Origin: Henricia sp. BOLD:AAB3569
Lineage: Eukaryota; Echinodermata; Asteroidea; Spinulosida; Echinasteridae
Direction of reading: 5' to 3'
Assembly (NCBI GenBank): GCA_037783545.1
Contig: JBBELK010000329.1
Location: 4,664,501 to 4,728,500, forward strand
DNA: 64,000 bases
Made by a program: the position numbers and the translations under genes. The notes beneath the pieces are model-generated. The model saw nothing but the letters and a program-made list of their open reading frames with translations, did no database searches and was not told where the DNA came from. Of the stretch, positions 10,299 through 63,632 are shown piece by piece; position 1 is the first letter of the stretch, and every line of letters begins with the position of its first letter.

Positions 10299-11489
10299 CT
10301 AGTTCAGCACCGAATTTTCCTTCGGGCTCGCAGGGGGCAATTCCGATTGCAGCACATAATCGTTACACGGACTCGCCGGTTTCGGAGCAAACTCATCCTG
10401 GGGTGCGTCGTGCGTCGTGGGGACATTTGTTTGCGGTAAGCTGCTGCACCCGACCATGTCGATGTAATCGTCACTAGCGGCAGATGCCAGTCGTAAAAGG
10501 GCTGGATTTGGAGTTGGAACGGAGGGGGCGATGGTGGGGGTTTGTGGGGACAAAGCTGTGGCGACGATGATATCTTGCGATGGACTGAAGTTCAGATCCC
10601 CGGCATGGATGTTCGGTATTTCTTTGTTGTTGTTGAGGCCAAGGACAATGCAATTGAGGTTATCCAGGGATAAATGATCGAGGTCGATAACAATAGGGTC
10701 TATTGTGTCGGGGCTGGTGTCGGGGGTAATTTCGGGGCTTGACTGGGAGGGCCAAACAGATTGATAAGCCGGCGATAAAGCCGGTTCCTCGAGTGCTATT
10801 TGGCTATAGCTGGGCTCCGATGCTTCTCCCGAATTGTGCTGCTTCCTGTGCGAATCCAACCGATTCATTTGGTCGTGATGTGGTCCTGGAACAGATGGTG
10901 AGAAATCGACTCCCATTTGGTGATAACTATGGCTTCCGGAGTCGCTCCCGGACGAGGAGAATCGGTTCTCTCGCATTGGAGGCGACGCTGACGGGGACCG
11001 TTTGGAAGTGAAGAGGGGCGATTCTCGCTTCGAGGTGTACTGGACTCCGTCAACATCACCCATGAGGATACGAATTGATGCTGGACTTCGTAGAGGCTCT
11101 GTTTCGGAGGGGTTACGAGTCTTGTAGCTATTAACCGGTCTGGTCATGTCATCAACGTCCTCGGGACAATCAAAAACTTCTGGATGGTCTTCCTCGTCCC
11201 TGGGAGTCAACATCCGTTGTTTCTGGTCCAATTCCAAATCCGATTGCGATCCAATCGACTGGTAGCTACTAGAGCAGCGAGCAAGTCGTCGTGATTGTTC
11301 AGCATCGCCGGCCATCTCGTGAAACCCTTGATCACTGCTGCTCTCCGTGCTTGACGTAAGGCTACCCTTGTTGGTCGTGCCCTCTAAACCCAGCTTAATC
11401 ACCTCTTGGCCCGTTTCGCAGGTTTTTAGAGTGTCGTAGTCTTCTTTTTCGTGCGGACGAGTCGCATGTCGACTGTTGAACTTTTCAAA
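10299..11489 (-). CDS. IL6ST: Receptor exon 14 (cytoplasmic tail)
   Basis: Acceptor TTTTCAG, stop TAG at 10301-10299, 396 residues (692-1087). The tail is rich in Ser, Pro and acidic residues. Tyr motifs include YDTL (709), YQSI (767), YHQM, YSQI, YQSV, YIDM (1033; a YxxM type that binds PI3K p85 in known proteins) and YVLQ (1069; the YxxQ type that recruits STAT3 in gp130). A hydrophobic/acidic stretch IVIDLDHLSLDNL lies mid-tail. No clear box 2 follows box 1. ATTAAA-like signals lie about 100-160 bases past the stop. Confidence 0.92.
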   Translation of the reverse strand, partial: FEKFNSRHATRPHEKEDYDTLKTCETGQEVIKLGLEGTTNKGSLTSSTESSSDQGFHEMAGDAEQSRRLARCSSSYQSIGSQSDLELDQKQRMLTPRDEEDHPEVFDCPEDVDDMTRPVNSYKTRNPSETEPLRSPASIRILMGDVDGVQYTSKRESPLFTSKRSPSASPPMRENRFSSSGSDSGSHSYHQMGVDFSPSVPGPHHDQMNRLDSHRKQHNSGEASEPSYSQIALEEPALSPAYQSVWPSQSSPEITPDTSPDTIDPIVIDLDHLSLDNLNCIVLGLNNNKEIPNIHAGDLNFSPSQDIIVATALSPQTPTIAPSVPTPNPALLRLASAASDDYIDMVGCSSLPQTNVPTTHDAPQDEFAPKPASPCNDYVLQSELPPASPKENSVLN

Positions 11490-14400
11490 CTGAAAACAAA
11501 ACAAATATGAGAAGGAAAATAAAACATTACGATTTGCAAGGATTTCTTATGAAATGGCTAAGAATCCCAATAAATCTATACTGCTTGCTAAGATTGCGCA
11601 TGCAGTCAACAGCATCTTTCTTGTCATATAAATAGAGAGATCAGCTGGATTGAGCTTATGTTTGAAATCGTAGGAAAACAATTCTTGTAAATCTTTCTCA
11701 GCTCCCTGGGGAGTATACAGCCCCGGCTGCCTATTAGGCACTCAACGGCTAATCAAACACAAACTTTCGCTACCCTCTTCGCCCTGAACCATTTCGCCCT
11801 GAACCACGGCATGTGCACAAAGTGGTTTTCGGGCGAAGTGGCATTTGGGCGATGTAGTGTTTGGACGAAGTAATTTGGGGCAAAATGGCACTCAGGCGAG
11901 GTGGTTTGGGGCGAAATGGTTTTGGGGCGAATTGAATTTTCGTCTCATTAGACAAAAACTAATCGTTTTACTCATTTCTCAAAGACTATAGCACTTCAGA
12001 CAAAACCATTTCAGGGGAGATTTTCTACGGTCATCATGTTCATATTGCGTAAATCTGTGAACATTTCTGATTTTCGAGATTACCAATGATGTATACTGCC
12101 TTTAAAGTATAACTTATCTACATATATCTTATCTCTTTAAAAACGACTTACATTTGAACCAAGGATTCCTTCAATGAAATACGGATCAGGTGGCGACTTT
12201 GCAAGCTGTGAGTGAAGCACACAGCGCAGGCAAAAAGCCAGTACCGTAATGCAGAATGCAATGGTAGGAAGTGCAATGCCGATAACCACTGTTGGAGGAA
12301 AACCCAAGGGAGAACATTATGTTTTGTTTGGTTGGTAAAATCAAATCTGAAAGAAATGGATTTTTAAAAAAAAGGTATCCAGAGTTAGCTGTTTTTATGG
12401 AGCTAATAAAATCATTTCTGAAGTTCAGTTTTCACCATGCATGGATCGTTAAGGTTTTCTGAAGTATACTGAAACGCAAAAGAAACTTACCACCTTTTAA
12501 ACCTTTAAATAGCAACAATAACACTGCGTGTAGTAATGTGTGAACTTATTTGTGGACAATAGTGTCCTCACTGTCAGACCAAACGGTTTCTGAAGTTCAC
12601 TTGAACCTTCAATTGTCACTTCATGGCACAGCTGTTGAACAGCTGTTTTGACTGTCGGTGATTAGCCAAGGGGTATGGGATGATTGTAATGAGCTGCACG
12701 TGATGTCTTAATGTTTGCTTTAAAAAGGCCAGTGCAAAATGGGCATTTCAAGCAACATGGTAGGCAGTATGCGCCGACGATGCACTGCCTCTATTCAAAT
12801 CAATGGTGGCCACACACGCTATTGAAAGGGGAATGACATCGCACCCTCTTCTGTTCTTTACTGTAGAACAAACTGATGAGATGGTGTATCTTGGTCAAAA
12901 ACGTGACATGTCATCAATAAAATGCCAATGTTTCAATTAGCAATTGTTGGTTTGTTTTATTTTGAACTGTTACAATTTCATTACATTTTAAACAAGTGGT
13001 AAGTTTCTTTTGCGTTTCAGTATATTACTGTATCTATGTGGCTCAAATGTTTACAAGACAGTTTATCATCATTATTCTTTAGTAATGCCGTTGTTCCTGT
13101 TTTTAAAAGTTTTCCAATCTTGTAATCTGCCGTTAAGGTGAAACTTTTCCAGGACAGACAACGCACCTTTAGGATCTATGCCGCTAAGGCCGCACATCTC
13201 CTGTTCAAGAACGGCAGGTGGTCCACACAATTTATCAGATTCCCGTATTCCCGTGCACGCAAGCACGTGAAACGTAAAAGATACAGCTCCTACCAAACCA
13301 GAGCAGTTGACCATCAGCGGCGCGTATGGCACCGACACCGACTTGTTTAATGGTGAAATTGCAGAACCATCATTGGGGTGATAACGAATTTCATACTCCA
13401 AGAATGGGCCGTTGAGGGTATCTGGGAGTTGCCAGGAGAGCTCAAGTTTGGACGGAGATAATCTGTGATGTTTCAGATTAAGGGGTTGGGTTGGTTCTGT
13501 GAATGGAAAACAAAAATTATTTATCAAAACGTGCCAAAAGTTGAGGCATAAAGTGCGACATTTCTTCGTTTCCACAAAATGGTTAATAAGGTAACAACAA
13601 GTCATAATTGTTTAAAGACACAGGCTCATCAATGCGCGAGTAACGAATTTTTGCAACGAAATTCACCGCGCTCCACACTAGTTGGGCACTCAGCTGTTAT
13701 GATCCCGGACGGTGTAGGCTCATTGGTTTACATACGTACATACAAACACACGTACGCGTGCTTCAACTTAAAGGCACAGGCTCGTCAGTAATGCGTGCGC
13801 GCCAAATTCGTGCAACGAAATACGCAGCTCCATAGCAAAGGCAAGGAGCTGCGTATTTTGTGGCACGAATTTGGCGCGCACGCATTGCCGACGAGCCTGT
13901 GCCTTTAATACTATTCACTGTCAAGCGCGCCTGCACCCTCCGGGATCGTAAGAGTGTGGTGAAATTTGTGGCACAAATTTGTGGCACGAATTCAGTTGAA
14001 TTTTGGCAAAATACCGGTTCAGTTCAAAAAATTTACTTGTGCATTTGGATTTGATTCGGGATTATTTAGATCAGTTTTAACTACCAAAGATTTTCAAACC
14101 ATTTCATAAGACTTTTTTATGATGAAGCAATTTTTTTGCATTTTTGCACATAAATTTGCTCGAGTACAAGCGTATTTCACAATGCAAGATTATGCTTAGC
14201 ACATAATTTGGCCTGCTAAGTGCTTTTAATAGCGAAAAATAGATTTAACCCTCCGGGAAGAGACCCTACCAGTTGCCGACTGGCTAATTAAGCGTTTTGG
14301 TTAATTACTCTGCGTATGAATTTAGTTAAAATCTCATTTTCCATGACTTTATACATTGTACGCTTGAGAAACATATTGTAAAATTTGTGTGGCCTGGGTA

Positions 14401-17400
14401 AGTTCATTCACCCGCTGTATCAGTTACAAGCTACCAGGCCAGCAGTCCCACATGGGAATTCCCCATTGACTGTGCACAAATGGCTTTTGCATGGGGGAGG
14501 GGTAGGTAATTGATGCAGTTGATGAAATTGAGCAATTGAACACTGGAGTGATGTCGGTCATCTGTTGGGCATGTTCTTTTCAGTCAAGCTTTTTTTTTTA
14601 GCTTTTTGTTTTAGCGTATCTAGCTATAAACGGAGTAAAGTGAGGTTTTGACTGCCCATTTAGCCAACCCACCACACCACACCCCCCCCCCCCCCCCCAC
14701 CCCCCACCCCCCCCCCCCCCCCCCACCCCCCACCCCCCCCCCCACTCCCCCCTCCTCCTCGCCCTCCTCCTCGCCCCCCTCCTCCCCCCCCCTTCCCCCC
14801 TGCAAACATTCCTGGATCCGCACCTGGTTATATACAATCTCTAGACCGTCCGAAAGAATTTGGAAATGCTAAGAGTCCATTTATGCAGGGGTATATGCCC
14901 CGTTCGTTGAGTTACACGCTGCCAGCTGTCGACTGGTACACTCCTGTAACGAGGTACCTGGATCGCCCACGCGCATCCAGGGTTAAGAAATTACAACTGT
15001 TTTGCACAGAGCAGAAAATGCGCGCTGACAAGTTTCATGACCAGGCTATCTGATATCCAGATTAAGACTAATTCCAAGCTTTGCCATCTTACTTGCAAAT
15101 TGCGTTGTCGCAATCTCTTCAACTAGGGGACTAGTGCCAGCTTTATTACTGCGGACGACTGTGATTGTATACTCTGAGTAAGGCTCAAGGCCTGGTATTA
15201 GTGCTGACGTCGCATCGGGCTCCAATTCGAAACTGCGTCTGTGGACAGAAAAAAAAAAACTCATTTCACAAAATATTTCTTGCAGTGCTTTCTTTTTGGA
15301 CGTTCTGGTAGATCTTGCCGAAACTTAAAAACTGAAATTGCTGTATTGATTGCTTTCCGTGACGTAGAACATCCGGGAATGTTTGGTGGTAAACAATCAC
15401 GCGTGCGCCAATAGACGCACATGAACATGCGTAAAAAATACTCACCAGCGTATTTTAATTTGAAGATGCCGCACGCACGCGTTGCGATACGTTCAAATTA
15501 TTGAGCATGCAAAAACGTAAATGCTTCTACTTGATCGCGATTTTTAGCCTGAAAAAATACGTTTTTATCTTTATTGATACAACAGCCATGGCGCAACAAC
15601 ATAAAGCAAGGTTAAGCAACAGAGGTATAAAGTGCAACCAATGCGCTTTTCTTGCTCTTTTTGCCGGCTTTCACTCGAGCCACGTGCGTCAAGAAAAATG
15701 ACAACCAAAATGGTGGATAGAAGGCGTAACGTCACCGGAAAGCAATCAATAGACTCTTTGCACCGGCGGCCATGACAGGGGAGCAGGTTTTCAAATTTAA
15801 ATGACGTGACAATACATTCACAAAATGCCTACTCCTGCATAGTGACAATAGATTAACTACTTTCGTATTCGGGCCAATCGAATTCCTTGACTTTCCCCAA
15901 TTCGGTATTAAACTAAAAACGTCACCCTTTGTGTGTTGCCATGGTTACTGGGTCTACACTAAAACCAGTGAACTGTTTCCCTGCACTTTAGCAATGGACG
16001 TTTCAGGTTACCAGTGAATGTTTGGACCCAGATGCCCTGGTAACTAACGTCACACCTTTGTAGTGTATTTGAGGCATTTTTCTCAAAACCACCGACTGGG
16101 AACAGGGAAACTAATTTTTCAGATTATTCCTAATTTTCACGTTTTTTTTCTAATAATTCTGGGATATTTACCCCGATTCTCCATTATAGTATACAAATAT
16201 TGACTGCTTCGAGTGGTATAGTAAAACTAGCCTCCCGAGGTGACCCACGGAGCGCATTCTATTTTAGAATGCTCCGTGGGTCACCGAGGGAGGCTAGTTT
16301 TACTATACCACGAGATAAAGCAATCAAGATTCTGCTTAATTTTGGCTTAAATAAAAATGAAATCAGTTTCATCAATTTTTGGTTGCATTCACTTTCCTAC
16401 AGTGTCCACCGCGTTCATACAACTGCTATGTGCGTGAAGTTGTTTTTGTTCGATCGCGCGCGTTACGCGTAATGCAGGCGTGTAGCGCCCACACACACAC
16501 GACCGAGATCCGCGCGCGGGAGTTGCTAGGGGTATAGTACTTTTCGGAATGCATGGTATAGTCTTTTCGGAGCACTTGTACAAAGATAGCAAAAATAGCC
16601 AACGTCACGTGACACGCTCTCGACCAACCACGATACAGAATCTGTGGGCGAGGTGTTATAAACACTATTAATGGACAGTATTTCGTGGGGTGGTTTGTCC
16701 ACTCACATATTGGTTAGGTGGTCCACTTTGTTCCACGTCACTCTGTAGTCTAAGATGACCCCGCGAGGATTCGAAGGGGCGTCCCAGGTGATGTTTAGGC
16801 TGTCTGGTGCTGGGGAGACAACTTTGACGTTCTCTACTTGGGATGGTTCTGTGGGGTTTCGCAAACCAGGTCAAATCACTCAAATGTAATCCGTCTTTAA
16901 AAGCCATATAGGGTCATTTTAAGGTATCTGGAACATTACGGACGGGACATTTATACATTTTGCGAGCTACCTAATACTGGTACAAATAGAAACCTATTCT
17001 GTTGCTCATAGTCGTCCTATTAAACAGTCCGACTTGAGGTACAGTGATCACACATATGTCCATTCATTTAGTGGCAAGGTAAACAAAACAAAAAATAAAA
17101 GAACTATGTTTAGCGTAAGTTGAAGTCTTCTAAAATGATGCGGTGACACGTTTTTTTTTCTTTTTTTTTTTTTTGGGTGGACGGGGGGAGGGGGGGTGTT
17201 AATGCATAGTTCCGAGTTTGCCTAGTTAACCCTGTCCCCTTGGATGTTGTTGCTATGGCTCACACGCTATCGTCAAAATGGCGACGCACAAAGCAATGGG
17301 ACTTTCAACGGAAAGCACAGATTCATTGGAGAAAACTCAAAGGTATTCATGTTTCAGGGTCGACAGTTATCTTAAAACACACATCTTAATTCTTATATGG

Positions 17401-20400
17401 AAGCCAAGGAGTTATACTCCCCATGTCGCTAAATTTATTCTTCGTTAGGTTGCCTAAATGTGAACGGTACCGCTTTTTGTTTGATCTTCGTTCAATGCTG
17501 ATTAACTAATTTGTGTGTGAATGAGATCTACAAGGCACGTAACTTGAACAGGGCCTAATTTCATAGTGCTGCTTCGCTAAAAATTGCACGGGAGCAAAAT
17601 ACGAGACATACTGTGCAGTAACAGAAAATGTTTACCGAAATTACTTTGGCAGACTAAACTTGACTCAAAAATACAGAAAAAATTTCTTTTAAGAGACGTA
17701 AAACAATTCCATTTTGTTCTTACTCGTTGTCAAATCTGGGATTTCTATATCTGCAAAAGGTCCAACAGCGCCCTCGGTGGTGTAGGCTGCAACACCCACG
17801 CGGTATGTGCGAAATTTATCCAGATCTGCACGCAAGTAAAATGAGAAAAAGTTTCACAGTTAAAGGGGTAGCCGAGTGGTTTGGGTCATTGACTCGCAAT
17901 CATGGGTGAAAACTTGGGGTTGCGGGTTCGAATCCGGCTGCGGTACCTGTGCCCTTGGGCAAGGCACTCAACCACACTTGCTCCATCCTTCGGAAGGGAT
18001 GATAAGCCGTTGTTGGTCCAGTGTGTTAGGTAATGGAAACGCACTCTAAAGATCCCAGAGCATTCTTTCGTGAAGAGCAAGGGGATTCCCCGGTGTCTCT
18101 GGTCATTTCTAATTCTAATTCTTCATGGGTTTCCTCACGCTTGCAAGTGACAGTGCAATGAGCACTATTGAGGAATCCTTGGTATGAATACCAGAAAGAA
18201 ATAATAATAATACCCAGGAAACAAAAGTCTGCAGATTATAGAGTCCGAGTCCATTAAAACTTTTGTTAACCAGTTGGTGCCGGGATTATTTTTAGCCAAA
18301 AATATAATTTATTTTTAAAAAGGCAAATGTGACTAGCCAAAAGACCAGGTCAAGCACCACAAATACTGACTCTTGAGAGTCATTTCTACATTAATTGTAT
18401 GAATTTTCTCACCAAAAGACCATACTTTGCAACACTCTGAGGCGGCCACCACAGAGTGAGATTTGCTACACTGACAGGCCGTCCATAACTTTCAAGTTAA
18501 AGTTCAAAATACGGTGTGTACAAATAAATAGTAGACATTGGACGTGTTTACACGTCAACTGTTGAAGACAGTGGCAAAGCTGACGTTTTGATTCGTCATC
18601 CGCCCCTGTGACTATCCATTGCCAAAACGTGTTTTAATACGCTTCCTAGCTCCGTCGTCAAGCGGTTAAAAAACTCACCTTCAAGTTCGTGGGCTGGTTG
18701 ATTAATTTGTATTGGCTGAAAGACAGTTGACAGATTCAACACGTAACCTCGAATGATCCCATTGCGCTCTGCAGGTAGCGGTGGCTGAAATACAGAAACA
18801 ATGATAAGACTTGTCACCCAAAAAAATGTACGATAAAAATATGGACAAATGTCCATGAGTTTTCCCCAAACTCACGAACATTTGTCCACATTTATTCACA
18901 CGTGCGGTCTCTGGGTCATAATCCCCTCATTCATAACAAAAATGTACTAAAATTATGTAACAAAATCAAACAATTTTAATCCGAGTCAGACGCCTAATCC
19001 GGGTCAGACGCCCAATCTGTGTTGTAGTCGAGTCCATCACAAGTCCCTGGGTCTTAATTCAAGTCACAAGCTATTCAATTGAACTCCAACAATAACATTC
19101 TTTTGTGCGTGTTCATCCTTTGCTTCTTGTCACTGATCTTGTGATTGACTTGTGCGGGACTTGTTACGGACTTGTGATGGACTCTACTACAACCCTGGTG
19201 CAGACACAGAAATAATCAATATGGCAGAATAATCTAATGACTATTCTATTAAAATTCATAAAAATATCTCACATTAGGCCCGTTTACACTCGATTCGCCT
19301 TTGCCGAATCGAACTCCGCAATTTCCAAAAAGGGGAGTTGAAGCCGGGTAGGTGCTAAGTGTAAACACAAAAGGTGAATTGAAAAAGGCGGATCAGACCC
19401 GGGTCTGATTCGCCTTTTTAAGTCACCTTTGGGGTGGGGTTGAACCCCGCAATTGTCAAGGTCGCTTGTAGTGTAAACGTTACCCGAATACAGATTCAGC
19501 AATTCGAGTGTCCTTGGGGCAGTGCCCGCCATGTGGTAGATTTAATTGACCAATCTGGCACTAGTGCCGCAACACCTAACAACTCACGCATGCGCTGCAG
19601 TTACAATTAGTGGTGACTTTTGCGGTTTCTGAAGGCGAGTTGAAGCTGAATCGAGGTGTAGTGTAAACGCGGCAAATGTTCAGTTTTGTGGTCGCAATAA
19701 AAATGCTGGGTCTCAAACCTTCATTTTTAAGGAGCGTGATCGCGCAGGCGCTCCTACCGCGCTCCTCGTAATTTTCGGGGAGCGTAAAAAATAGCGCTCC
19801 TCAAAAAATAACGGGACCATCAATGACCAAGTGTCCGAATGCCAACGCTGTACGGTGCGACTAAAATGGTCGCATTGGCACCTAAAAATGCTCACATGCG
19901 ACCAGTGATTAAATTCTTATCGCCATTGGCGACCACAAAATTCGCACCTTAGTCGCCCAAGGTGGGCATCAGTGATGTTTACGGGCGGTACAATCCAGTG
20001 TTCTGCTCTTTTTAATATACTTGCGGCATGCAAACGACGATTGCGCATTGCATTTTTCCATTTCGCCACGTGCAACACACGGCCACAGCTTGGGTCTGCA
20101 TTGTGTCCAACACAGCTTGTGTGCAATATACGTGCATAGACATACATGCATCTGGTATCCGACTGCGGCCCCAAACTCGGCCCCAGACCAACTCGGCCCT
20201 CATTGCCTTGTGTACAAACTCGGCCCCAGACTGACTCGGCCCCAATTGCCTTGTGTACAAACTCGTACCCAGACTGACTCGGCCCCAAACAGGCTAAACA
20301 TTTGATTTTTCCCCAAAAGTCCATATACAGTGTGTTTTCAAAGATTTTAAGGAACTTTTTTTTTTTATTAGGAGAGCTATTAGCTCTCCTCGATTATCTC

Positions 20401-23400
20401 AGGAGAGCAATTTAGGGCTCTCCTGACTTTTTTAAAAATGAAGGACTGGGGTCTGTATCCACCTTTGCCAGTTCGAGTGTAAACACGGTGATTATTGTAA
20501 GTTGCAAGCATTACCTGCCACGTAAGTAGAACGTTCCTCTTGTACAGGTCTCTATTGGTGCCGAGCGACCGCTGGGTTAAGCTAACAACCACTCCGCTAG
20601 GGACTACAAACGATCATAGTGTTAGACTATTCTCATCAACACATAATATGGGGGTAATTGTCAGTGGGATGTGCTTTGGGTCCACGAGTGTGATAATAAT
20701 AATGTTGTGGAAATATCCACCAGGCAAGATATTTGTGTTTTTTAGTGAACTATTCAGAGTTTTCTTGGACATGGAGCAGGTGTCAAATTAAAGTTGCACT
20801 GTCCGATTTTAGGCCGATTTAAGCATCAATATTTTTTTGTTAAATTTAAATTGCATATTTTTCTAGAATAGAAAAAGTTATCAGCTTTCATTTGTTACCA
20901 AGAACGTAAAAATCCATCAAGGATTAATGCCAGTCGATTAAAAACAGGCCCTATCTTTTATTCGACAGGGTTATGACGTAAATGTACATGTGCGCGTACG
21001 TGTGTGTACATTGTACACATACTATGTACATATGAGCGTAGGCGCACATGTACAACATGTGAAGCCCGTTTCAAGAAAAAGGCTTGTATCTCCAGTTCCT
21101 GATGTCGGAAATTTCAGTTTTTTTATATTTTTCGTTACAGAGACACGTAGGCTTTCTAAATTCGTTCGCTTAATTGTGTGAATTAAATTTTTTTAAATCC
21201 TTTCACCTAAACACGGACAGTGCAACTTTAAAGCTTATGATCTCAGGTTTCAGGGGATGTACAGCAAAAATGAGAAAATTAAAACTACAATGTACATGCT
21301 TTGAACGGCAACTACTCCAAACAATGGCTTGCCATTTTATTCAGGTTTTTGTCGAAACGATCACAATTTTGAAAAGGCTCGGCAAATTATTACAGCTTTA
21401 GCACTGTTTTAAACAACCTTACAACTGATGTTTTACTGACGAAAAGATGATATTATTAGTGACCTAGACGTCCTTTGTTTGTTGGTTGCGGCTGAAAATC
21501 TTCAACGACCTTACCCGATTCAGGGGAAAGTCTGGTCACGAGAGGCGACCACTCGCTCCTTCCGCCGTGTCCACTCAACTTGCAAGCAACTCTTGCAGTG
21601 TAGTTGGTGTAAGGTGTCACGCTATCGATGGTGTATCGTCCAGAGTAATCAACCGTTTGCTGCAAAAACAAGCAGAAGAAAGACTGAAAGAGCACACACG
21701 TTTTGCCAAGATGCAAAATATATAAATTATGGATTTGCTGCCAAAAAATTTAAGTCAATAAAAACAAATTTAAAAAATATATTGTCACAAACAGGCTTGT
21801 CAGCAATGCACGCGCGCCAAATTCATGCCACGAAATACGCAGCTCCATATCAAAGGCATGGAGCTGCATATTTCGTGGCACGAAATTGGCACACGCGCAT
21901 TGCTGACGAGCCTCTGCCTTTAAAGGTAGTATACTTGTTTGGCATTTGATAAATTGTTAAAAACGGCATGATTTCCACTGGTAATTGAAAGCCTAGGTCG
22001 AGAAAACTACCTTGTAGAAATGTCAGCCACATAGATGCAGTAATACTTCAGAAAACTTAAAAAGAATCCAATCATGGTTTTGTACATGAATGAATGGCTC
22101 CAAAGATCGCCTGTAGGCGATCTTTGGAGATTTAAATAGTTTTGTCATTTTGGGGGCACTTCAGACGAAATAATTTCACAGGATGATTACTACCATTCCC
22201 ATCTTGATAACAAGTAAGCTTTTGGATAATAATTCAGACATTTTTTTGGAGGGTAATTACCAAACAAGTAGAATACCTTTAACTGCCATAAAAATGCTTG
22301 GATTCTGTTGTAAAAGATCAATATCGAGTAGTCTATACTGCTCACAATACAAATTTTTTCAAAATTGGAAGGAAACAAATTTGGCCTTTAATTTTTTCAT
22401 GTTGTCTGCAGTAAATGATATAACACATGTCTTATTACCGTATATTAATTACTGCAGAAAACACAAAAAATTTAAAAATATAAAAAAATAAAATTTTGGA
22501 CGAGTCATTTTTGTGAGCAGTGTATTAAAGTGACAGGAAGCACTTTAGAATTTGTAAAAATTCGCAATTGAGTAAATCTAATTTTTTCTCCGTTTTTGTC
22601 AGTAAAACTCTCGCCTCGAGAAAATGCAGTGTGAGAATTTAGTGTGAAGCGACGTACTGAAAAACATTTGCCAGATGCTTACTTCGAATGTCTTGAAGTC
22701 TTGCACTGTGCTATCCTTGTACTGAATCATATATTCCAGCAAAGCGGAATTGTTCGTCGGCCATTGCCTGGGCAAGTCCCAGCTTAGCTCTAGGCTTATC
22801 GAGTTGTCTTCTGTGTCTTGACGAAACTTCAGTAATAAGTTACTTGGAGGGTTTGGAATGGCTGTCAAGGAAAATTCAAGAAGAGAATAAAGATTTTTTT
22901 ATTTACAGCTACCGTAATTTTCCCAGACAATACAGGATGTCCAAAACAATAGGCCGATCCAGTAAGCTCCGCCCATTTAGCAATTGCCTAGCAACACGGC
23001 ACACGTGCGAGGCACGTGTGCAGTCGCATAAACACTTTTGAGCCTGGTAGGAGCGTCTGCCAACACGCACACGCACACAGAAACTGCACGCTTCCGAAAG
23101 TAAAATGTGCACTGTGACAAGTATCCGGTCGTGTGCATGCGCGTACAACACACTTGCTTTTAAGCTTTACGCACGCAATCGAACAAAAACAATTAGATGC
23201 ACGGCTAGCAGTTCACATACGAATGCGGTGTAGAAAAGTGAATACAAAACATGGCAGAACGACAAGCTAAATTCACTAATAACATTATTTTAACAAACAT
23301 CAATTTTTTTTACAAAAAGAAAATGAAATCCAAGAACCAGAATATGCATTACTAGAAAGCTGTATTACTCGAAAGTGGAATTTTGCTAATTCACCACTAT

Positions 23401-26400
23401 GCGAAAAATGCGACGAATTATTCTACAAGAGTGGCCTCATGTCAAATAAACTAGGACCCTGAATACTGTGGTATTATCCGTGCAGTATAGCCAGGGAGTC
23501 GGCCTAAATAGGACGGTGACTTTGCACAATTTCTTGAAAGTACGGACAAAGTTTTCCTTGTTTTCTCAGAAACGTAGATGAGGTACTGAGATGAGTTTTT
23601 ATTATACACATCCTCAATCAAACCCATTTTGGACTTTGACGTGCTTACTATGTAGGGCTGCCGAAAACGATGTCCTCGCGGTATTATTCCCGAGGGGGTT
23701 TTCCTGGGTCACGCGTATCTCCATCATGTCCAGTAATGCATTTTCGCTGAACCGATGTGGCTCGCGTGGTCCGAGCGCAACTGTATTCCAGTCGCCACCA
23801 TCTCTGCAAATTTAATGAAAAAAATACAATGTACGAGTTAGATGCTTGTTTGCCCGCTACTTAACAAATTGGGTATTGGAAGTATATTGTATAAATAAAC
23901 AGGTAAATATATACTGAGCAATAAAGTAAACGTTTTTAATGAAAAATGCAGACAGTCAGTCAGAGTGGGAATTTTCAGCACAGACAAGCTTTATGCAGTC
24001 ATGCATAAAGCCTATCGTAGATGGACATTGCAACTGGAAGCAACTCAACTGATCAGTTGCTGTCGATGTGGGCGTAGCGCGCTCATCGACAGCAACTGAT
24101 CATCTGCGCAACTAGCGGCAACTGAGAGCATCCAGCCGTGTCCACATTTTCAGAGCACGCACATCGACGCAGCAACTTGGTAAAGCGTACAGTACATTGA
24201 CCTTGCAACTGGAAGCAACTGTTGCTTGCAGTTGCTGTCGATGTGCGCGCACATGATCAGATGCACACGAACAACTGACAGCAACCAGTACGTGGCAAGT
24301 ACGTGTACATCGACGCAACTGACCGCAACTGGGTACAACTAGTTGCAACTTGCGGCAACTGGGATTTTTCCAGTTGCCAGTAGTTGCAAGTGCACGTACA
24401 TCGACCTTTTTAAGCAACTGATCAGTTGCTCCCAGTTGCCGCGAGTTGCTTCCAATTGCCAGAAACACCAATTGCCACTAGTTGCTTCCAGTTGCAACGT
24501 CGATGTACGCTAGGCTTAATGAAGGCGTTATTTAAATATTTAAAATTCAAATTTAAATTTTGATTAACTCTTTTACTACGGAGGTTTTCAAGTTCTGTGA
24601 CAATTAATTGAAGGCCACCGTTTGTTTATTTTCCGGCCGGAAGGCCGCTGTGAGCGACACATCGTAGTGAGAGAGTTAAACTGAAAATTTGCATTTCTTT
24701 TGTAGCTCAGTATATATTATAAGTACAAACACTCACTGTACTGGCCGGTACTGAAATAACGTTTTCTGAATGCTGAGTCCCGTGTAACTGCCTTCCTCCC
24801 ACGTACAAGTGAAACGGACTGTGTTTTTGCTGTAGCAGTGGAGGTTTTCAGGGCGATATGGCGGAACTGCGGAAACGTAAGATGTGAGCGTTTTACTCAT
24901 GAGTGGCAACAATGTTTAAAGATAGTATACATGATTGGTAAACTGTTACAAATAGCTTTATCCCCCTGTGTGATTGAAGATATGCATGATTAAAACCAAC
25001 CTGAGCAAAAACCAGCTTCGTACTTCGTCTAACTTTTGAGAAAACAGTAAAAAAAGGGTTTGCAGTCATTTCGCCCCAAAACCACTTTGCCCTGAACCAT
25101 TTCGCCCTGAACCACGGCCTGTGCACAAAGTGGTTTTGGGGCGGAGTGGCATTTGGGCGATGTAATGTTTGGACGAAGTAATTTGGGGCGAAATGGCACT
25201 CGGGCGAAGTAGTTTGGGGGCGAAATGGCACTTGGGCGAAATGGTTTTGGGGCGAATTGAATTTTCGTCTCATGAGACGAAAAATATTTGTTTTACTTAT
25301 TTCTCAAAGACTATAGCACTTCAGACAAAACCATTTCAGGGGAAGTTTTCTACGGTCATCATGTTTATATTGTGTAAGTTAGACGTAAATATGTGAACAT
25401 TTCTGATTTTCGAGATTACCAATGATGTATACTGCCTTTAAAAAATCCAAACATTTAGATCATTAACTAGGCATTACAGGAAACATTTAGCAGTTGAAAT
25501 AAGAAATTAGGTGCTTGGGCAATTATGTTGGTAAGAGTTCAGCGCTCCAATTCACAATAGGCATTGGGTATAAAGACCGAGTGAACACATTTCTGAACCG
25601 TGGCCCACTTAGGAACCTGTTTATGTGTAATGACCATCCCAAAACCTCCATGAACTGATGCAAACAGTTGAAGAGGAGTTCAATGATTTGCGCCAGTGAT
25701 GACGTTGGAATCCTGAGAGGAGCCGCCCACGCCTTATGCGACACTGTATTGCAATAGGTGGCTGCCAAGTGGAGATATATCGGTTCAAGAATTGGAAATC
25801 TGAAAATCAACAGTCTTTTCCGTGTTACGTAATAAACAGTTACTTGAACAGGGCTCACGTTTTCTTGGATAAAATTGCCCAAGCTCCTAATTTATATTTT
25901 CTACCACAGAATTTTGACCGCGATGCGTAATCTGAATTAAATTTTCAGAATGTTTTAAAACATTGTGAAAACTACAAAAAGATAAAATACCACAACCAAA
26001 ACGAATAAGGTTCAACACTATTAACCCCTTGGTTCTGTGGAAAATCGTGTACTACAAAGTGGATAATGGTACCATTATACAGGGTGTTTAAAAAAAAAAG
26101 GAAACCGAGATTAATTTGTTAATTTCGTGGAGATGGCTAAATATTTTGGAAATTGGCAACCGCCATCTATTAGCTAATGACTGAGCACGGAGCAGTGTAA
26201 TCAACCATGTCAGAACTGGTCTTGCACCAAAAATATGTTTTCATAATGAACCATGTCTGCCCAGTGCAGGGCTTTTGTTGGGCCTCCAAATTATGCAATC
26301 CTCAGCCTGTTATTTCATTGCACACTCCTTAAAAGTCGAAGGACACTGGGGTTAGGTCGAAACAGGGAAAGGCACCCAAAATGTGTAATCATTGAGAATA

Positions 26401-29400
26401 CAATTTTTGTTGAGGACACACTGGTCTTTCTTTTTGTTTAGGTATGAAAATTGTTGGAGTTAGGCTGCGGTGAATCTGGTACAAGACCAGTTCTGACATG
26501 GTTGATTACACTGCTCCGTGCTCAGTCATGTGTGACCGTAAATTGGATTTCGTGGTGTCATAAGAAAGAGGACATCATTAGCTAATAGATGGTGGTTGCC
26601 AATTTCCAAAATATTTAGCCATCTCCACGAAATTAACAAATTAATCTCGGTTTCCTTTTTTTAAAACACCCTGTAGGGTTAAACAAATCAAAAAAGATTT
26701 AGATTTTTAGATTTGGGCTAGAACTTTAACTTACGTCCAACGTAGACCTGAACTGAAGTTTGGGCAAATGTGTGATGGTCCATTTGAGTTGCAGTGTCCA
26801 GGGAACACCAGTACAATTTCCCTTCGTTGCCTGGCTGTTGCGGCATCGCCAGTCCGTGAAGATGCAGCAGGGACGTCCGATCGTCAACGACCTGCACGGT
26901 GTGACTGGTCGCGATGTCATCGCATCGTCTCATATGACTGCATATGTGCCACCTCAAGTTGGCGGCGCTGTGACCAAAGCTGGACTTGTCGATGAGTGTG
27001 CAGTTGAGTGTCAAGTCAGTGCCGTTCTTGACGAAGCTCTCGCCTCGGGGATGGATAGTTGCTGAAAGAGAAAATAAAAACTTTGCTTTTACTTTTGTTT
27101 TAGTTTGTTTTTACAATAGCAATCATTGAAGGAAAAAGAATGAATTTACCTATAATTCCCCTAACGTGGCGCGGCCCCTAACGTGGCGCGGTCCCTTAAC
27201 GTGGCGCATTTTACTTTCCGTTCTCTCTTGGCGCAATAAACAATCTGATGCACTTGGCATTAAAAATAAATAAAGTTCTAAAGTACCTTCATAAATTCCA
27301 AAACTAAAATACGGAGAAGAATCATTCATTTACGAGAAATTCACCAGAATCTGAGGGTAGCGCCGTTCGCGTCAGGTTAACATGACGTCATACACGAGAG
27401 CCTGTAATAGACATTTCACGTGAATAAAATGATGTCTATCGGCGTTGTGTATGGTGCGTGCATGCAAATTGGTGATCACAGGCAACAGTAGCAAGGATCT
27501 CAACATTTCAGCCATTCAGCATCGACTGCGCCATGTTAGGGCACACTCGGACGATTTTCCGTGAGTAAACTTTTGCGGCAGTTTGTATCATTTGTACTTG
27601 GCCAAAATAAGTGAATGGCTGTTTTTCTGGAAGGGATATAATTCTGGATTAAACTGTAAAAGCCTGAACCGCATATGCTGATGGATTTTGCTGCAATGTG
27701 AATGGATTTGCAGTGAGTTGTCGAAGTGCGCCAAGTTACGGGACATCATTATAACATGGCTGAATAATATATTTCACGGTGATCGCAATCTGAACCATGA
27801 CATTTTCTTGTGTAAAAGTATAGAGAGGGCGTATTTTTGCATTTCAGAACTCCTTTATTTTTGCAATTTCTTAACTCTGGTTTTCTCCCGAGAGCTTTTT
27901 CTCTGGGCGACTCGAGGTAGTTAAACAAATGCACCCACAGCGCGACGTTTGTGGACTGCATGTACATATAGACCCATCAAATATTTGTCCATTTTGTATT
28001 ATCCAGGACCTGCTTCTCTCAAATTGTTCCGATACGTGCTGCGATGTTTTCCCAACATTCTCAGGAGAAAAGGCGTTGTTTTGGTTGGCTTAAGCTGTCT
28101 GAAGCACTTATTGAACTGATGATTATAAACAAAGAATTGTGCATGTTTTGACAAGAGAACTGACAAGGGAATCTTTGCTCTAAAGCAAAATTGGCAAGTG
28201 GCTAAAAGGAGTGCAACATTTGCCGAAGAATTTATTGCCCGTTAAATGACTGGAGGCACTGACGCTGTTTTGACGTCTTTCTAGCTCCACGCGCACGTCA
28301 TTTAAGTCTTATCTTCAGGATCCCGAAGGAAATCGATAGACACCAGGCTTTATCCAACAATTTGCTAGACGAGTATAAGATATTTAAAATGTCTGTAGGG
28401 TCCATTTGAGCGATGGAAAACGTAATCGGAGACGTGGAAACAAAAACTGCTGACATGCTGTCTTTTCGAGGGATGTGTGCCCTTTTCTAAATTGATCTGA
28501 AGCAGCGATTTCCAACTATCTGTGATATCCGCTTGCAGATTTATTGCACTTTAGAGGAAGAAAATTGCGTATTGGCCTACAAGTTGGATAAGGAATTTAT
28601 TGCGCTTTTCTGACATTCGTTTTAGTGTGCGGTAAAATTCTTGATTACGGTTTTTCCCAAGAGGTGTTTATCACACTTTGATATTGAGCTGCATCATTCT
28701 TACAGGGATGTGATTTGTTCCGGTTTTTCACGGAATAATCTTTGTCACAAACCAATGAAACAAAAGAAAGTTCCGGGAAAAACCGAAACAATCACATTCC
28801 TGTTCTTAAGAAAATCCTTACTTTGTTGAGGCATATGTCATGAGAGTGAGCGAATTTAAGTATCGTGCGAATTCAGTGTCGCGGGGCGGACTCGGGGCAG
28901 ACTCGGAATGGACAGTTATCATTTTAACAATTCATCCACAAATGTTCATGTTAAGGCCAAACAAAATAAATGATGTGTGGTACTGTAACCCGACCTACCT
29001 GGAATTTTTGAGGCCAAATTACCAACCTCAAACTTTTCATTGCCAATTTTCTAATTGATAATTTTAAACGAGCACTATTTGCAATAATTTCTAACGAACA
29101 TAACATTTTCTGCACTTGTACATGAACATGGTTAATAGTGCTAATACTAGTGAGTTTCAAAATTGCAAAATAACACGCAAATGCATGAACTGAAATGTAG
29201 AAATAAATGACAAAATAAAATTATTTAACTATCTACCTACCTGGTTTTTTTTTAGGCCGTTACTGTAAAACGCACCATTTATTTTGTTTGGCCTAATTCA
29301 AAAAAGACAAATCTGCACTAATTCTCAAGCTGCTTGTGGAATTTTATCCTTTATAGAAATTGTAAAGTTGCATGTCTAAAAAAACCTCTGTTACACCGGC

Positions 29401-40375: not shown

Positions 40376-40387
40376 GTAGTCTTTATT

Positions 40388-47784: not shown

Positions 47785-48085
47785 TTAAGCTTGGGATGCA
47801 ACTATTCTTGTACCTATTTGTTCTGCATCTCACAGTAGTTAACTGATTTGTGTTTCTCAAACTATTGTTCCTAGTTGGTGGAAGCCAGTCTCGGAACCTA
47901 TTTGTACTAAGAAGTGACCTTCCGAAATTGAGGGTCAATTTCTTAAGTCTCTGAGATACAGGGGAAATATTCAGTGCGCTACAAACTGTCTGATATGACT
48001 GTTTATTGCAATAATCATAAGTAAGAATGGTGCGGAAAGCCTTCTTTTGAAGTTTTTCGAGACACTCAAGTTGCTTTTTAGATAA

Positions 48086-50251: not shown

Positions 50252-50689
50252 GATGTGGGTGGGTTTGTGCGAGTAAAGGAACGTTTTTCAGTTCCTTTAA
50301 TGTTCTTTCAGTGCAGCGCCATTGACCATGAGCATCCGCGTGCAGACAGCATTTTAAAATAAAAGCAATTTCCTCTGGTTTTCAAACCTTTACGGACTTG
50401 TTTTTTGGGAGGTTTTACCGAGACCGAGACGATGGTAAAATGAAAAATGGCTAAATTTTACTGATGTTCTGATGTGGGTGGGTTTGTGCGAGTAAAAGAA
50501 CGTTTTTCAGTTCCTTTAATGTTCTTTCAGTGCAGCGCCATTGACCATGAGCATCCGCGTGCAGACAGCATTTTAAAATAAAAGCAATTTCCTCTGGTTT
50601 TCAAACCTTTACGGACTTGTTTTTTGGGAGGTTTTACCGAGACCGAGACGATGGTAAAATGAAAAATGGCTAAATTTTACTGATGTTCG
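50252..50689 (+). repeat. Exact 219-bp tandem duplication
   Basis: 50252-50470 and 50471-50689 differ at one base by eye (AAAGGA versus AAAAGA). They are recent by identity. Each unit includes GAGCATCCGCGTGCAGACAG and a FACCGAGACC-like GACCGAGACGATGG block. Confidence 0.9.
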
Positions 50690-56240: not shown

Positions 56241-56675
56241 CTATCCCAAAGTGATTGGTAGACGAGTGCCTTGTTATCCACAAGTTCACTGTAATCAACA
56301 AACACCTGTTCTGATAAGACTTGATTTTTAAAGAAAACTGTGTTTCCTTTTTGGTCAATTATAATTTGGAAAATTCCAGATCAGACCAAAAGCAAAGCAT
56401 ATAGCAAAAGCAAACCAAAAAATACAATTGTTTTTTTGTTTTTTGTTCGTATAAAAAATTTCTTTATTACAAGATACCTCAATATTTCAATGCGATTCTT
56501 TATCAAAAAACAAAATACAATAACACAATTTTCCCAAGTATAAAAAGGTTACCAAATATTTAAGGCACAGTATGGAGTTGTATAGCACTTGTGTGACGGC
56601 CAAAACATTTAATAGGAAATATTAATAATTCACACCAAACTTAACATTTTACGCATAAATAAAAGGAATTTGGTC

Positions 56676-59551: not shown

Positions 59552-59607
59552 TTAGTCCAAGGCTTCATAGATCTCTTGCTGTTCCTCCTCTTCTGATCCA
59601 CTTTCAT
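59552..59607 (-). CDS. FYB1: FYB-like last exon
   Basis: Acceptor TTATAG, phase 1. It encodes DESGSEEEEQQEIYEALD and the TAA stop at 59554-59552. The acidic end with a final Tyr resembles the EIYDDI-type C-terminal motifs of FYB. The intron before it (59608-61386) holds two MITE-type elements. Confidence 0.82.
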
Positions 59608-62600
59608 CTATAAAAAAATAAATAAATAAATTACAAGATTGGTAAACGGCGTTATCTCCATGTGTGATTGAGGATGTGTATGATAAAAACCAACCTGTGT
59701 ATTGATTGCTTTCCGTGATGTAGAACATCCGGGAATGTTTGGTGGTCAACGGTCATAAGCGTACACGCGCGCGCCACTAGACGCACATGGGCACGCGTAA
59801 AATATACTCACCAGCGTACTTTTATTCGAGAATGCCGCACGCGCGCATTGCGATACGTTCAATTTATTGAGCATGCCATGCAGCTTGTAAAAATGAAAGT
59901 GCTTTTGCTTGATCGCAATTTTTAGCCTGAAGAAATACATTTTTATCTTTATCAATACAACAGCCATTGCGCATTAACATACAGCAAGGTTAAGTAACAG
60001 AGGTAAGTGCAACCAATGCCCTTTTATTGCTTTTTTTGCCGGTTATCACTCAAGCCACGTGGGTCATGAAAAATGACAACCAAAATGGTGGATGGAAGGG
60101 GTGACGTCACCGGGAAGCAATAAATAAGTCAGCTCAGTACCTCACCTACTATCCGAGAAAACAATTAAAAATAATGTGTCCATGCTTTCAAGAAATTGTG
60201 CAAAGCCACAATCCTATTTAGGCTGGTTCCCTGGCTGTACTGTATGGCAAACAGAGCCATAATACCACGGTAGTCAGGGGCCTTGTTTTGTTTACATGAG
60301 TGTGCCCTTGTAAACAAAATGTGAGATTGTTTTCAAATACCATTTAAGCGACCATTTGTTTCCTTTTTTGGGCTTAAGTTATCTTCGTAGAATAGAACAA
60401 GTTAAAGTTATTTCTTATATTTCGGGAGAATATAAAATCATTTGTAGAAAAAATATTATCGATTGCCAAAATGGACTTTAACACGTTAGTCCTCAAAGCG
60501 CCCTGTATTTCTTCCATGTTCAACTCGGTAAATTCAAGTTTCTGCAAACACAACCTTAATAGACCAATCCAGTAAGCTCCGCCCATTTTGGAATTGACCA
60601 ATCACAGCCTCAAGGTAGGTAGCCAAAAAGTAGATCGCCATTTTGGCTACCCGAGTCCTCAAAATTGTGTGCACAGAGCTACAGCGAAATGCAGCACGAG
60701 TGACGCAAAAACACCATAAACATCATTTCTATCAGCGCAGAGGACCCTAGCAGGTTTAAAACAGATTGTATAAGACTATCCTAACCTACTTTTAATCCCT
60801 TCATAAATATGTTTTTGTGTAAATTGGTAAAACTCAACAAAATTAGCTTGTCGTTTTGCTATGTTGTGCATTCACTGCGTTCTAGATGTGTGTCGAGATG
60901 TTTTTGTTCGATCACGCGCATTACGCGTAATGCAGGCGTGTTGTACGTGCACGCACATGACTGGATACTTAAGTGCACATTTTGCTTTCGAGCGTGCAGT
61001 TTCTGTGTGCGTGTGCGTGTTTCAATACGCACTGACCAGGGCGCGGACACTGACGCACAGCGCGGCCACGCGACTCTACTGCACACGTGCCTCACATGTG
61101 TGGCATGTTGCTAGGCAATTTCTAAATGGGCGGAGCTTACTGGATCGGTCCATTGATAGGCATGTACTCATAGCTGGACTCATCCTCTTTCAAATCTTGT
61201 GTTCAGTAAGGGTGGCTACTATTGGATAACTCTTGTTATTGACCTTGACACGGAACATTACCAACAAGTTCCGAGGAGTAATAAGACTCACTACTTGTTG
61301 CCACTGAGTGCTGTTGCGTTAAACAAAAGGAAACAAGTTTGACAATACAAGCAACATTAATTAAGAAATTAAATAATTTCTCTTACCGCAAGGTATAACA
61401 TCATCGTATGTTTCTTGGACATCATTTTCAACGGCAAGGAAATCAGAATCGACAAAACCATCTACAAAAGAAAATATTTTATACATTCCTTATTAATACC
61501 GAGGTTTTCTGCGTTCTCTTTTTTTTTGACAAACCATGCTTAATAAGAATGGCATTACAATCAGTTTTTCAGGAATTACACTTCCATCAAGGATGTTTGT
61601 AGAACATGTGTTTTAAATCAAATAACTTGAATACATCAAGCATCACTCTGAAGTATATGTCTGAATTTGCACAGCTCTGGCAAAAAGCACCGCATTTGGA
61701 CGCAGCCGGAGCAAGGGAAACATTAGGGTACCGTGGCAGAGTGGTTTGGGCCCTTAAGCAAGGCACTTGCTCCATCCTTCGGAAGGGTTGTAAAGCCGTT
61801 GGTCCAGTGTGTTGTGTAATGCACTTAAAAGATCCCAGAGCATTCTTTCATGAAGAGTAGGGGAATTCCCATGTGTCTCTGGCCGTCGGCTGCCAATGGC
61901 ACCACCCACCTATGTATCTGAATGTTTAGGTGGAAGACACTTGTAAGCTTTATGCAATTCAGCCTACGGGCTGCAAATTGAAGTTGCTATTTTACTTACA
62001 TCTTCCTTCCGAGTCTCTGACCAGCCATTTTCCGGGTGGGTTCCCCTCCCGCCTGAGGACTTCTAACCGATCCCCTCGCTTACATACAAGATCCGCCTTT
62101 TCGTAGTCGGACCCGCAGTCCTGAATCACCGTCGTGACGTCCAAAATACGGATGTCTCCTTTGATCTGTGTAAAATAAGCAACAAATTACGACAACATGC
62201 TTCAAAGAAATTTACTAAATCAACAATTAAAATCCAACATTGTAAAGTGGTATTATGGGCGAACGATCTGGTGTAGCAAACTCAAGATATATGTTAATTC
62301 TGTTGGTTGTGGGTTCGAATCCAGGTAGTGTCCAGGAAGTGTGTGCCCTTGGGCAAGGCACTTTGGCATAATTTCTTCTCTCCACCCAAGAGTAAATGGG
62401 TACCTGTGAGAGTAGTGAAGGTAATGTTTCTGTTTGATTTGCTCATGAGTGCCTAACAGGCACTTGTGTTACGGACACTTGTGTTACATTTTAGGCCGTC
62501 CCGTTTATGAGCGTATATTGGAAATTTTTACACATGGTTTTTAGAAAGGCATGTTGTCACACTATTTGTAATCCTTTTTGGGCCTAAGATATCTCTTCAG

Positions 62601-63632
62601 AACAACTCAAACTTATTTCTTTTATTTTGAGACCAGACAAAGGTATTTTCTGGAAAATATGGTCTGTGTTGCCAAAATGCCCCCTTTACTGTGGAAAGAC
62701 TCATATAAAAACAAACATTGACTGCTTTTTATTCAGGTCATGGTTAAGACTTTAGGCCCTTGGTGATCTCAAAGCCATGACTATGCATAGTCATGGCTTC
62801 GAGATCACCTTGCACGTATAATCTTAACCATGACCAGCAGCGGCGCTACGGGGGCACAAGGGGGGGGGGGGGGAAATGCGCCCCCAGTTATTTTTTTTGC
62901 GCCCCCAGTTTGCACCCCCCAGTTTTTTCCCTGATGGCGGTAATTGAGTTTAATCCCAAACCATTGCACCCAATTTGTTACAATGTTGTTTGCGCTGTAA
63001 ATAATAAACTCAGTTTCATCCATCATAATTAGCTGGCACCATCAAAAAAGCCCAATACACATTCCATCTCCGGCAATGTTAATAAAATGTGGATTTTCCC
63101 CCTCTAAATTTAAGTTTGCCCCACTCTTGCCCCCCAGATTAAAAGGTCTGGTGCCGCCGCTGACCATGACCCTCATTGCAGTCAATATTTATATAGGCGA
63201 ATTTAGCATTACCTCGTTCTGTGCACTTTCGCACTGAAATTGAGGCTCCTCGTGTCAAGTCGGCAGTACGCGTGCGCTACAAGTACAGTATTGTACAGTC
63301 ACCGAGTGTGTACATGCACTGTTCTGCATGGCATTTGTGCATTCACGTGCGTACATTAGTTCACTCGTGTGCAGACTGATTCGTCTATAGTTTTATCCAA
63401 ACTCACATTAAACTTCTTTTTCATCTCTTTCTCTTCTTTCTCCTTTCTCTTCTTTTCTTCCTTTTCCCGTTTTTTCCTTGCTTCTTCCTCTTTCTTCCGT
63501 CTCTGCTGGTCCAGTTTTTCCTGTTCTTTTCTCTGTTTCTCCTCTTGCTTGCTTTTGATCGACGCCGTTTTCCTGGGAGATGCTGGAGGAGGCGGCATGA
63601 CGTCTGTCGTGTCGATGGATTCTGATGGGGGC
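59552..63632 (-). CDS. FYB1: FYB/PRAM1-like adaptor, 3' part of gene, four coding exons
   Basis: Gene span; exons are 63407-63632, 62000-62165, 61387-61461 and 59552-59607, giving 175 codons including the stop. FYB1 (ADAP) is a cytoplasmic scaffold that links immune receptor signalling to integrins and actin through SLP-76, SKAP and Fyn. Visible order: a Pro-rich start (PPPPASPRK), a highly charged Lys/Glu coiled coil ending EMKKKFN, the helical SH3 domain (IKGDIRILDVTTVIQD, KRGDRLEVLRREGNPPGKW, RYGFVDSDFLAVE), a YDDV motif and an acidic end with IYEALD. Human FYB has the same series (RKKFGLTG, RITDNPEGKWLGR, YGYIKT, YDDV). There is only one hSH3 and nothing follows the YDDV segment, so PRAM1 is an alternative name. 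The N-terminal part lies past the right edge. Confidence 0.88.
59702..60124. mobile_element. TA-flanked MITE, TTGATTGCTTTCCG ends, copy 2 (423 bp)
   Basis: It has the same ends and interior as 15346-15749. It is inserted into a dispersed repeat (59631-60330): at 38930 the undisturbed paralogue reads CCTGTGTATAAGTCAGCTCAG across the empty site. Confidence 0.75.
60557..61162. mobile_element. Fold-back element, CCAGTAAGCTCCGCCC ends
   Basis: AATAGACCAATCCAGTAAGCTCC is inverted at 61128-61160. The interior contains GTTTTTGTTCGATCACGCG and TGCAGTTTCTGTGTGCGTG. Partial copies: 22943-23200 (reverse), 30665-30930, 16400-16560. It lies in the last FYB-like intron. Confidence 0.62.
61387..61461 (-). 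CDS. FYB1: FYB-like exon: end of hSH3 and YDDV motif
   Basis: Acceptor TTGTAG, donor GTAAGA, phase 1 to 1. The carried T completes Tyr, giving RYGFVDSDFLAVE and then ETYDDVIPC. YDDV tyrosines of ADAP bind the SLP-76 SH2 domain when phosphorylated. Confidence 0.87.
61729..61885 (+). mobile_element. SINE fragment, copy 3, head truncated
   Basis: The A box part (GTGGCAGAGTGGTTTGGG) is fused to the body (CTTAAGCAAGGCACTTG) with the B box missing, consistent with an internal deletion. It lies in the FYB-like intron before the YDDV exon. Confidence 0.65.
62000..62165 (-). CDS. FYB1: FYB-like exon: helical SH3 domain
   Basis: Acceptor CACAG, donor GTAAGT, phase 0 to 1. It encodes most of the helically extended SH3 fold, with KRGDRLEVLRR and NPPGKWLVRD matching the human KQGEQIEIIR and NPEGKWLGR. 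In ADAP this domain lacks ordinary Pro-peptide binding and contacts lipids. Confidence 0.9.
62255..62465 (+). mobile_element. SINE fragment with B box, second subfamily
   Basis: GGGTTCGAATCCAGG is followed by GCCCTTGGGCAAGGCACTTT and GTAAATGGGTACC. It has the same middle motif as the other SINEs but a different downstream body. It abuts the repeat at 62465-62705. Confidence 0.55.
62462..62705 (-). repeat. Dispersed repeat, copy 2
   Basis: Reverse-complement match to 1432-1665 over about 235 bp by eye, including TTGTCACACTATTTGTAA. It lies in the FYB-like intron upstream of the hSH3 exon. Confidence 0.6.
63407..63632 (-). CDS. FYB1: FYB-like exon: Pro-rich segment and Lys/Glu coiled coil
   Basis: Acceptor TTCCAG at 63633-63638, donor GTGAGT at 63401-63406, phase 2 to 0. 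It encodes a PPPPASPRK segment and then about 55 residues of E/K/R/Q repeats ending KKKFN. The same element directly precedes the hSH3 domain in FYB1 and PRAM1. Confidence 0.85.

Follow-up and report, generated by a model that had tools for sequence, protein, structure and literature searches.

The analyzed stretch, hereafter called the window, comprises 64,000 nucleotides of the sea star Henricia sp. BOLD:AAB3569 (C329:4664501-4728500). C329 is the contig JBBELK010000329.1, which has a size of 5.72 Mb and represents 0.8% of the 740.7-Mb assembly. The window carries a gene for a gp130-type cytokine receptor and the 3′ part of a gene of the FYB family of adaptors. Both genes are located on the same strand with FYB upstream, and the distance between the FYB stop codon (59552) and the receptor start codon (36362) was found to be 23.2 kb.

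The receptor gene model, joined from the genomic sequence, is complete. It consists of 14 exons on the minus strand (36362..10299) and encodes 1,087 amino acids in a single open frame with start and stop codons. All 13 introns have GT-AG borders and the phases are consistent. The encoded parts are, in this order, a signal-like peptide, an immunoglobulin (Ig)-like domain, a two-domain cytokine-receptor module, three fibronectin type III (FN3) domains, a transmembrane (TM) segment and finally a tail some 420 residues long (Table 1). Around the cytokine module the intron phases are 1-2-1-0-1, as is typical of class I receptors in vertebrates.

Table 1. Exons of the receptor gene and the FYB-like gene. 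Positions are those of the window; D1 and D2 denote the first and the second domain of the cytokine-receptor module.
Feature	Position	Strand	Basis
Receptor exon 1: start codon and signal-like peptide	36278..36362	-	gene model
Receptor exon 2: N-terminal Ig-like domain	26735..27061	-	Ig by reading; recurs on contig C369
Receptor exon 3: D1, first half of cytokine-receptor module, C-x9-C-x-W	24737..24866	-	Pfam below cut-off; reading
Receptor exon 4: D1, second half, without cysteine	23649..23803	-	gene model
Receptor exon 5: D2 (FN3), first half	22683..22861	-	fn3 0.065, open reading frame alone
Receptor exon 6: D2, second half, RSEWS replacing WSXWS	21515..21659	-	gene model
Receptor exon 7: first membrane-proximal FN3, start	20515..20603	-	gene model
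Receptor exon 8: FN3	18679..18784	-	gene model
Receptor exon 9: FN3 end	17724..17825	-	gene model
Receptor exon 10: second membrane-proximal FN3	16707..16848	-	fn3 4.6e-07
Receptor exon 11: FN3 end	15093..15238	-	gene model
Receptor exon 12: third membrane-proximal FN3	13167..13496	-	fn3 9.8e-09
Receptor exon 13: TM segment and box1-like SPPDPYF	12152..12288	-	gene model
Receptor exon 14: cytoplasmic tail with YQSV, YIDM, YVLQ; stop	10299..11489	-	gene model
FYB-like exon: proline stretch, lysine/glutamate-rich run ending KKKFN, start of helically extended SH3 (hSH3) domain	63407..63632	-	
FYB-like exon: core of hSH3 domain	62000..62165	-	
FYB-like exon: hSH3 end and TYDDV motif	61387..61461	-	
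FYB-like last exon: EIYEALD and stop	59552..59607	-	
FYB-like upstream exons, beyond the right edge of the window	~77609-76893, 76.26, 72.73, 67.87 kb	-	

The whole receptor matched the Pfam model fn3 in four stretches with an expectation value (E) of 9.8e-41. The Pfam models of the cytokine module (CHD) all stayed below their cut-off, the nearest reaching 26.6 bits versus 27.3; exon 3 gave EpoR_lig-bind (7.2e-06) and LIFR_D4 (2.4e-04), both below cut-off. Among PDB sequences, the best matches were gp130 (1.9e-20), IL12RB2 (9.2e-19), LIFR (2.1e-15) and OSMR (3.9e-12). No Pfam Ig match was obtained in the scans of the receptor open reading frames (ORFs) or of the whole protein, and the Ig-like domain, like the TM segment, was recognized by eye.

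The criteria for class I receptors of the gp130 type, namely cysteine pairs, WSXWS motif and topology, were drawn from PMC1963337. The topology of Ig, CHD, three FN3 and TM fits the gp130 type. The first cysteine pair of the first CHD fold (CX9-10CXW) is present as HCYSKNTVRFTCTW, with nine residues between the cysteines. The second pair of this fold was not found, D1 holding two cysteines in total, and the WSXWS site of the second fold reads RSEWS with the first W replaced. The same paper describes this motif as slightly variable (PMC1963337). Since the second cysteine pair is absent and the WSXWS motif is degenerate, the protein is termed "gp130-like" here; in these two features it differs from gp130 (IL6ST), with which, as with other group-2 class I receptors, it shares the signal peptide, the Ig-like domain, the two-domain module, three FN3 domains, one TM segment and a long tail. 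gp130 is also its best match by sequence. The receptor is probably a co-ortholog of the gp130/LIFR/OSMR/IL12RB2 group that predates the duplications within it, and not of LIFR/OSMR specifically.

The tail carries SPPDPYF after the TM segment. Of its ten tyrosines, one stands in a YXXQ motif and one in a YXXV motif. Each of these two motifs is expected by chance in more than a third of such tails, and neither is significant. The tail exon alone had no Pfam match at E below 0.1. The genome search for STAT_alpha gave two matches, on different contigs, and we read these as one gene. By analogy with its family, the receptor would probably dimerize or join a partner to bind a helical cytokine, and would signal via a JAK plus the STAT found.

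The 3′ part of the FYB-family gene lies within the window (63632..59552, minus strand), and the gene extends past the window edge to about 77.6 kb in window coordinates. The joined C-terminal exons matched the Pfam family hSH3 (PF14603) with an E-value of 1.4e-10 (42 bits versus a cut-off of 25.7). Compared with PDB, they matched FYN-binding protein chains (3.2e-11 and 2.4e-07), the best two of 106 matches at E≤10. The motif YDDV is present in three of the FYB-like exons and YDDT in one; the YDDV tyrosines are presumably SLP-76 docking sites in FYB/PRAM1 adaptors. The hSH3 domain, the preceding lysine/glutamate-rich run, the proline-rich N-terminal part and the repeated YDDV are common to this gene and to FYB1 (ADAP), FYB2 and PRAM1. 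One hSH3 domain was seen in the partial model, as against the two distinct hSH3 sequences of FYN-binding protein that are matched in PDB. The model does not include the first exon and two upstream joins (76.1 to 72.7 kb; 67.7 to 63.6 kb), and a search for exons missing between its pieces found none. A genome search with the PF14603 family profile gave no match, in our reading because an intron splits the domain; the joined protein did find the locus. Judged from its family, the FYB protein would serve as a scaffold, in which phosphorylated YDDV recruits SH2 proteins and the proline-rich parts would recruit SH3 or EVH1 proteins.

These results agree with the first-pass annotation of the window, which had described a complete gp130-like receptor and a FYB/PRAM1-like gene 23 kb upstream on the same strand. 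It had also stated that no recognisable gene lies between them. On both strands of the interval, repeats and a piece resembling a long interspersed nuclear element (LINE) were seen, and no gene was recognised by ORF reading and coding score; this negative is a weak one, as the ORFs were read without a Pfam scan and the score cannot rule out short exons. Of nine ORFs with known exons, seven scored 2.9-8.5, and ORFs of the interval reached up to 7.7, the proline-repeat ORFs at 39.7 kb excepted. The codon score was dropped as a gene finder, since it fails to separate short real exons from ORFs of the interval.

The interval contains near-duplicate tandem units at 50252-50688 and 51281-52027 (219 bases with 99% matching; about 350 bases with 85%). 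The LINE-like fragment (47669-48115) resembles by eye the C-terminal part of a reverse transcriptase.

The order of genes on C329 is CPLANE1, NAGLU, receptor, FYB, KLHL and NIPBL. Right of FYB, a BTB-kelch gene (KLHL; Pfam 9.3e-24) and NIPBL were found, the latter by a match to Nipped-B-like protein in PDB (1.8e-29). To the left of the receptor, NAGLU exons are located on the minus strand at 905-1980 and about -4.5 kb (Pfam 3e-35), of which the exon 905-1144 was called by Pfam and the others by eye. Human NAGLU lies near STAT3/STAT5 in 17q21. CPLANE1 lies at about -18 to -64 kb in window coordinates. Its Joubert domain gave an E-value of 2.5e-05 (24.5 bits versus a cut-off of 27), and three colinear exons matched a provisional human CPLANE1 sequence fragment, with E-values of 4e-10, 7e-12 and 3e-9 in single comparisons. 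The left flank also holds an HMG-box gene (0.0015) and a GABA-B-like exon named by eye (ANF_receptor 0.0041), both below cut-off. For the N-terminal Pfam domain of RICTOR, the whole-genome search matched C329 alone, at a pair of exons that lie some 640 kb to the left of the window and one of which matched Rapamycin-insensitive companion of mTOR in PDB (2.9e-15).

For the identification of further copies, the genome was searched with the FYB C-terminal part (107 aa), the Ig and cytokine module of the receptor (311 aa) and NIPBL (79 aa). At E≤0.001 only C329 and a second contig, C369, were matched, each with one FYB and one gp130-like locus and no others at the sensitivity used, at which distant class I receptors may escape. 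On the plus strand of C369, NIPBL (962,942), the FYB hSH3 (1,021,587) and the receptor Ig exon (1,057,311) follow in the same order as on C329, and the spacing between the hSH3 and the Ig exon is 35.6 kb compared to 34.9 kb on C329. RICTOR had no match on C369 in the whole-genome search with its N-terminal domain. C369 is probably the second haplotype.

Between the two contigs, aligned differences amounted to 5.1% in introns 2-5 and 3.0% in exons. In receptor exons 2-6 (936 bases) no insertion or deletion was observed and the splice sites are kept, whereas about 6.8 such events were expected at the intron rate (P ~0.001). The same exons show 21 nonsynonymous and 7 synonymous changes. The resulting ratio of nonsynonymous to synonymous rates (dN/dS) of 0.84 is compatible with neutrality (Fisher p 0.65), and purifying selection on the receptor is not supported from this ratio alone, since it is indistinguishable from neutrality. 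The receptor ectodomain (C369:1057301-1063500 versus window 21515-27061) shows a high amino-acid polymorphism over 312 codons between the presumed haplotypes.

Human 5p13 is taken here to carry the stretch FYB-RICTOR-OSMR-LIFR...CPLANE1-NIPBL. For the spotted gar, the corresponding passage of the paddlefish genome paper lists fyb, rictor, osmr, lifr ... cplane1, nipbl (PMC8042750), which is taken as gene order. With this stretch the Henricia locus has in common that FYB, a group-2 cytokine receptor, CPLANE1 and NIPBL are found together with RICTOR linked. The receptor-FYB pair is thus very likely part of an inherited neighborhood that was present before echinoderms and vertebrates diverged and that matches the vertebrate stretch, as read in one echinoderm assembly on contigs C329 and C369. 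Receptor and FYB would then adjoin by descent and not through acting together; the age of the linkage says nothing on a joint function of receptor and adaptor. A pre-vertebrate linkage resembling LIFR/OSMR-RICTOR-FYB had been proposed in the first-pass annotation, and the flanking NIPBL and CPLANE1, RICTOR on the same contig and the gar passage (PMC8042750) support it. The two arrangements differ in several respects: the vertebrate stretch has LIFR plus OSMR whereas Henricia has one receptor, and in Henricia receptor and FYB sit between CPLANE1 and NIPBL, unlike in vertebrates.

Several results weigh against a common origin of the two neighborhoods. RICTOR is about 640 kb away and not adjacent, unlike in the gar list, and NAGLU, KLHL, the HMG-box gene and the GABA-B-like gene are absent from the gar passage (PMC8042750). 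The identity of CPLANE1 is less firm than that of the other genes of the block, depending on a sub-threshold domain and a provisional human sequence, and the genome-wide search with the Joubert profile gave no match at E≤0.001. A specific closeness to LIFR/OSMR was not found, as gp130 and IL12RB2 score above both in the order of best hits; co-orthology to the group as a whole is the better description. Of the neighbors named for checking in the first-pass annotation, RICTOR was on C329 and the C9-type and DAB-type matches were elsewhere. Among the best candidates, to which these genome searches are restricted, none was located on C329 or C369 for Nucleoporin_C (NUP155-type, possibly NUP133; 12 matches, C571 and C22), the LMBR1 family (LMBRD2; 17 matches), the PTB domain (DAB2 type; 11 matches) or MACPF (C9 type; 3 matches), and, as contigs are not chromosomes, a gene missed on the contig may still be on the same chromosome. 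One of the five neighbors sought genome-wide before their place was known, RICTOR, was thus on C329. For each gene the contig offers a target of about 0.8-1.5% of the assembly, as many genes are present in two versions, and a single hit among five genes would then arise by chance with a probability near 4-7.5% (own arithmetic). For this reason the weight rests on the flanking NIPBL and CPLANE1, which were read directly from the sequence.

It is unlikely that the neighborhood is held together by selection, through shared immune-cell enhancers or through a common pathway of receptor and adaptor. Both families are active in vertebrate blood and immune cells, whereas NIPBL, CPLANE1 and RICTOR in the same block are broadly used genes, and FYB is not known to bind gp130-type tails. 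Receptor and FYB have been kept in one neighborhood, as such selection would have it, yet RICTOR and OSMR separate FYB from LIFR in the gar passage (PMC8042750).

That receptor and FYB met by chance in this lineage, the likeness to vertebrates being coincidental, is very unlikely. The four of five prospectively sought neighbors that were unmatched on the contig and the several local genes foreign to the vertebrate block would fit such a coincidence. Against it, the pair is flanked by NIPBL and CPLANE1, which are neighbors in the published gar list (PMC8042750), and RICTOR lies on the same contig. Under random gene order, the probability of at least three shared genes among 20 neighbors was 6.9e-07, or 1.4e-05 when 20 receptor loci are allowed for, an estimate made when the block was already known.

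An assembly join of unrelated sequences, to be considered because the assembly, with several genes present in two versions and an apparent mitochondrial concatemer, is not fully polished, is in effect refuted, because NIPBL, FYB and the receptor recur on C369 in the same order and with similar spacing, and the difference of 5.1% in introns 2-5 makes C329 and C369 distinct sequences.

Because cytokine receptors evolve so fast, orthology between those of invertebrates and those of vertebrates can rarely be decided by sequence alone. Given inheritance of the neighborhood, the shared block of unrelated neighbors provides an independent anchor that connects the gp130-like gene of the echinoderm with the LIFR/OSMR site of vertebrates. 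The linkage of receptor and FYB would be dated before vertebrates and before T cells, and the origin of group-2 receptors becomes testable by position.

In a further-reaching scenario, all gp130-type (group-2) receptors would go back to a single founding locus, the vertebrate LIFR/OSMR site by FYB. The ancestral receptor-FYB pair would have been multiplied by the vertebrate genome duplications, and common regulation in immune cells would have preserved the pairing from a time before echinoderms and chordates diverged. Human FYB2 is presumably near LEPR/IL12RB2/IL23R on 1p, and PRAM1 and IL27RA are presumably both on 19p. We regard this scenario as conceivable but doubtful.

gp130-like receptors outside the vertebrates are already known, for example in Ciona (PMC1963337). 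The Ciona receptor has the gp130 topology and a multi-exon cytokine module in common with that of Henricia. The same survey, from 2007, reports the Ciona and fly receptors to be without conserved synteny to vertebrates (PMC1963337), in contrast to the Henricia receptor, and the shared neighborhood of receptor and FYB goes beyond that result. A survey from 2026 describes IL6R-type receptors in Strongylocentrotus and Saccoglossus and gp130 itself as vertebrate-only (PMC13203501). No report of a linkage between FYB and a cytokine receptor in an invertebrate was found in the open-licence literature, which was queried in related, not identical, terms.

Two further observations were made on the flanks. 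At -31358 to -28941 (plus strand), an Ig-domain gene (I-set 8e-13) is apparently nested in an intron of CPLANE1 on the opposite strand. Right of NIPBL, at about 165-183 kb, CUB-like and C-type-lectin-like exons were seen by eye.

Cytochrome oxidase I (COI) was matched once on contig C2104 and three times on C955, where the three copies are 16,221 bases apart and probably represent an assembly concatemer of the mitochondrial genome. About 10 of 13 AAA codons of COI are at asparagine positions in conserved stretches of the protein and none at a lysine position; the lysine of PTGIKVF is encoded by AAG. Isoleucine is a good reading for the 26 ATA codons, as is tryptophan for TGA. This codon use points to table 9 of the mitochondrial codes, which is that of echinoderms and also of flatworms. 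COI is followed by ND4L and COII, and the order COI-ND4L-COII is that of echinoderm mitochondria.

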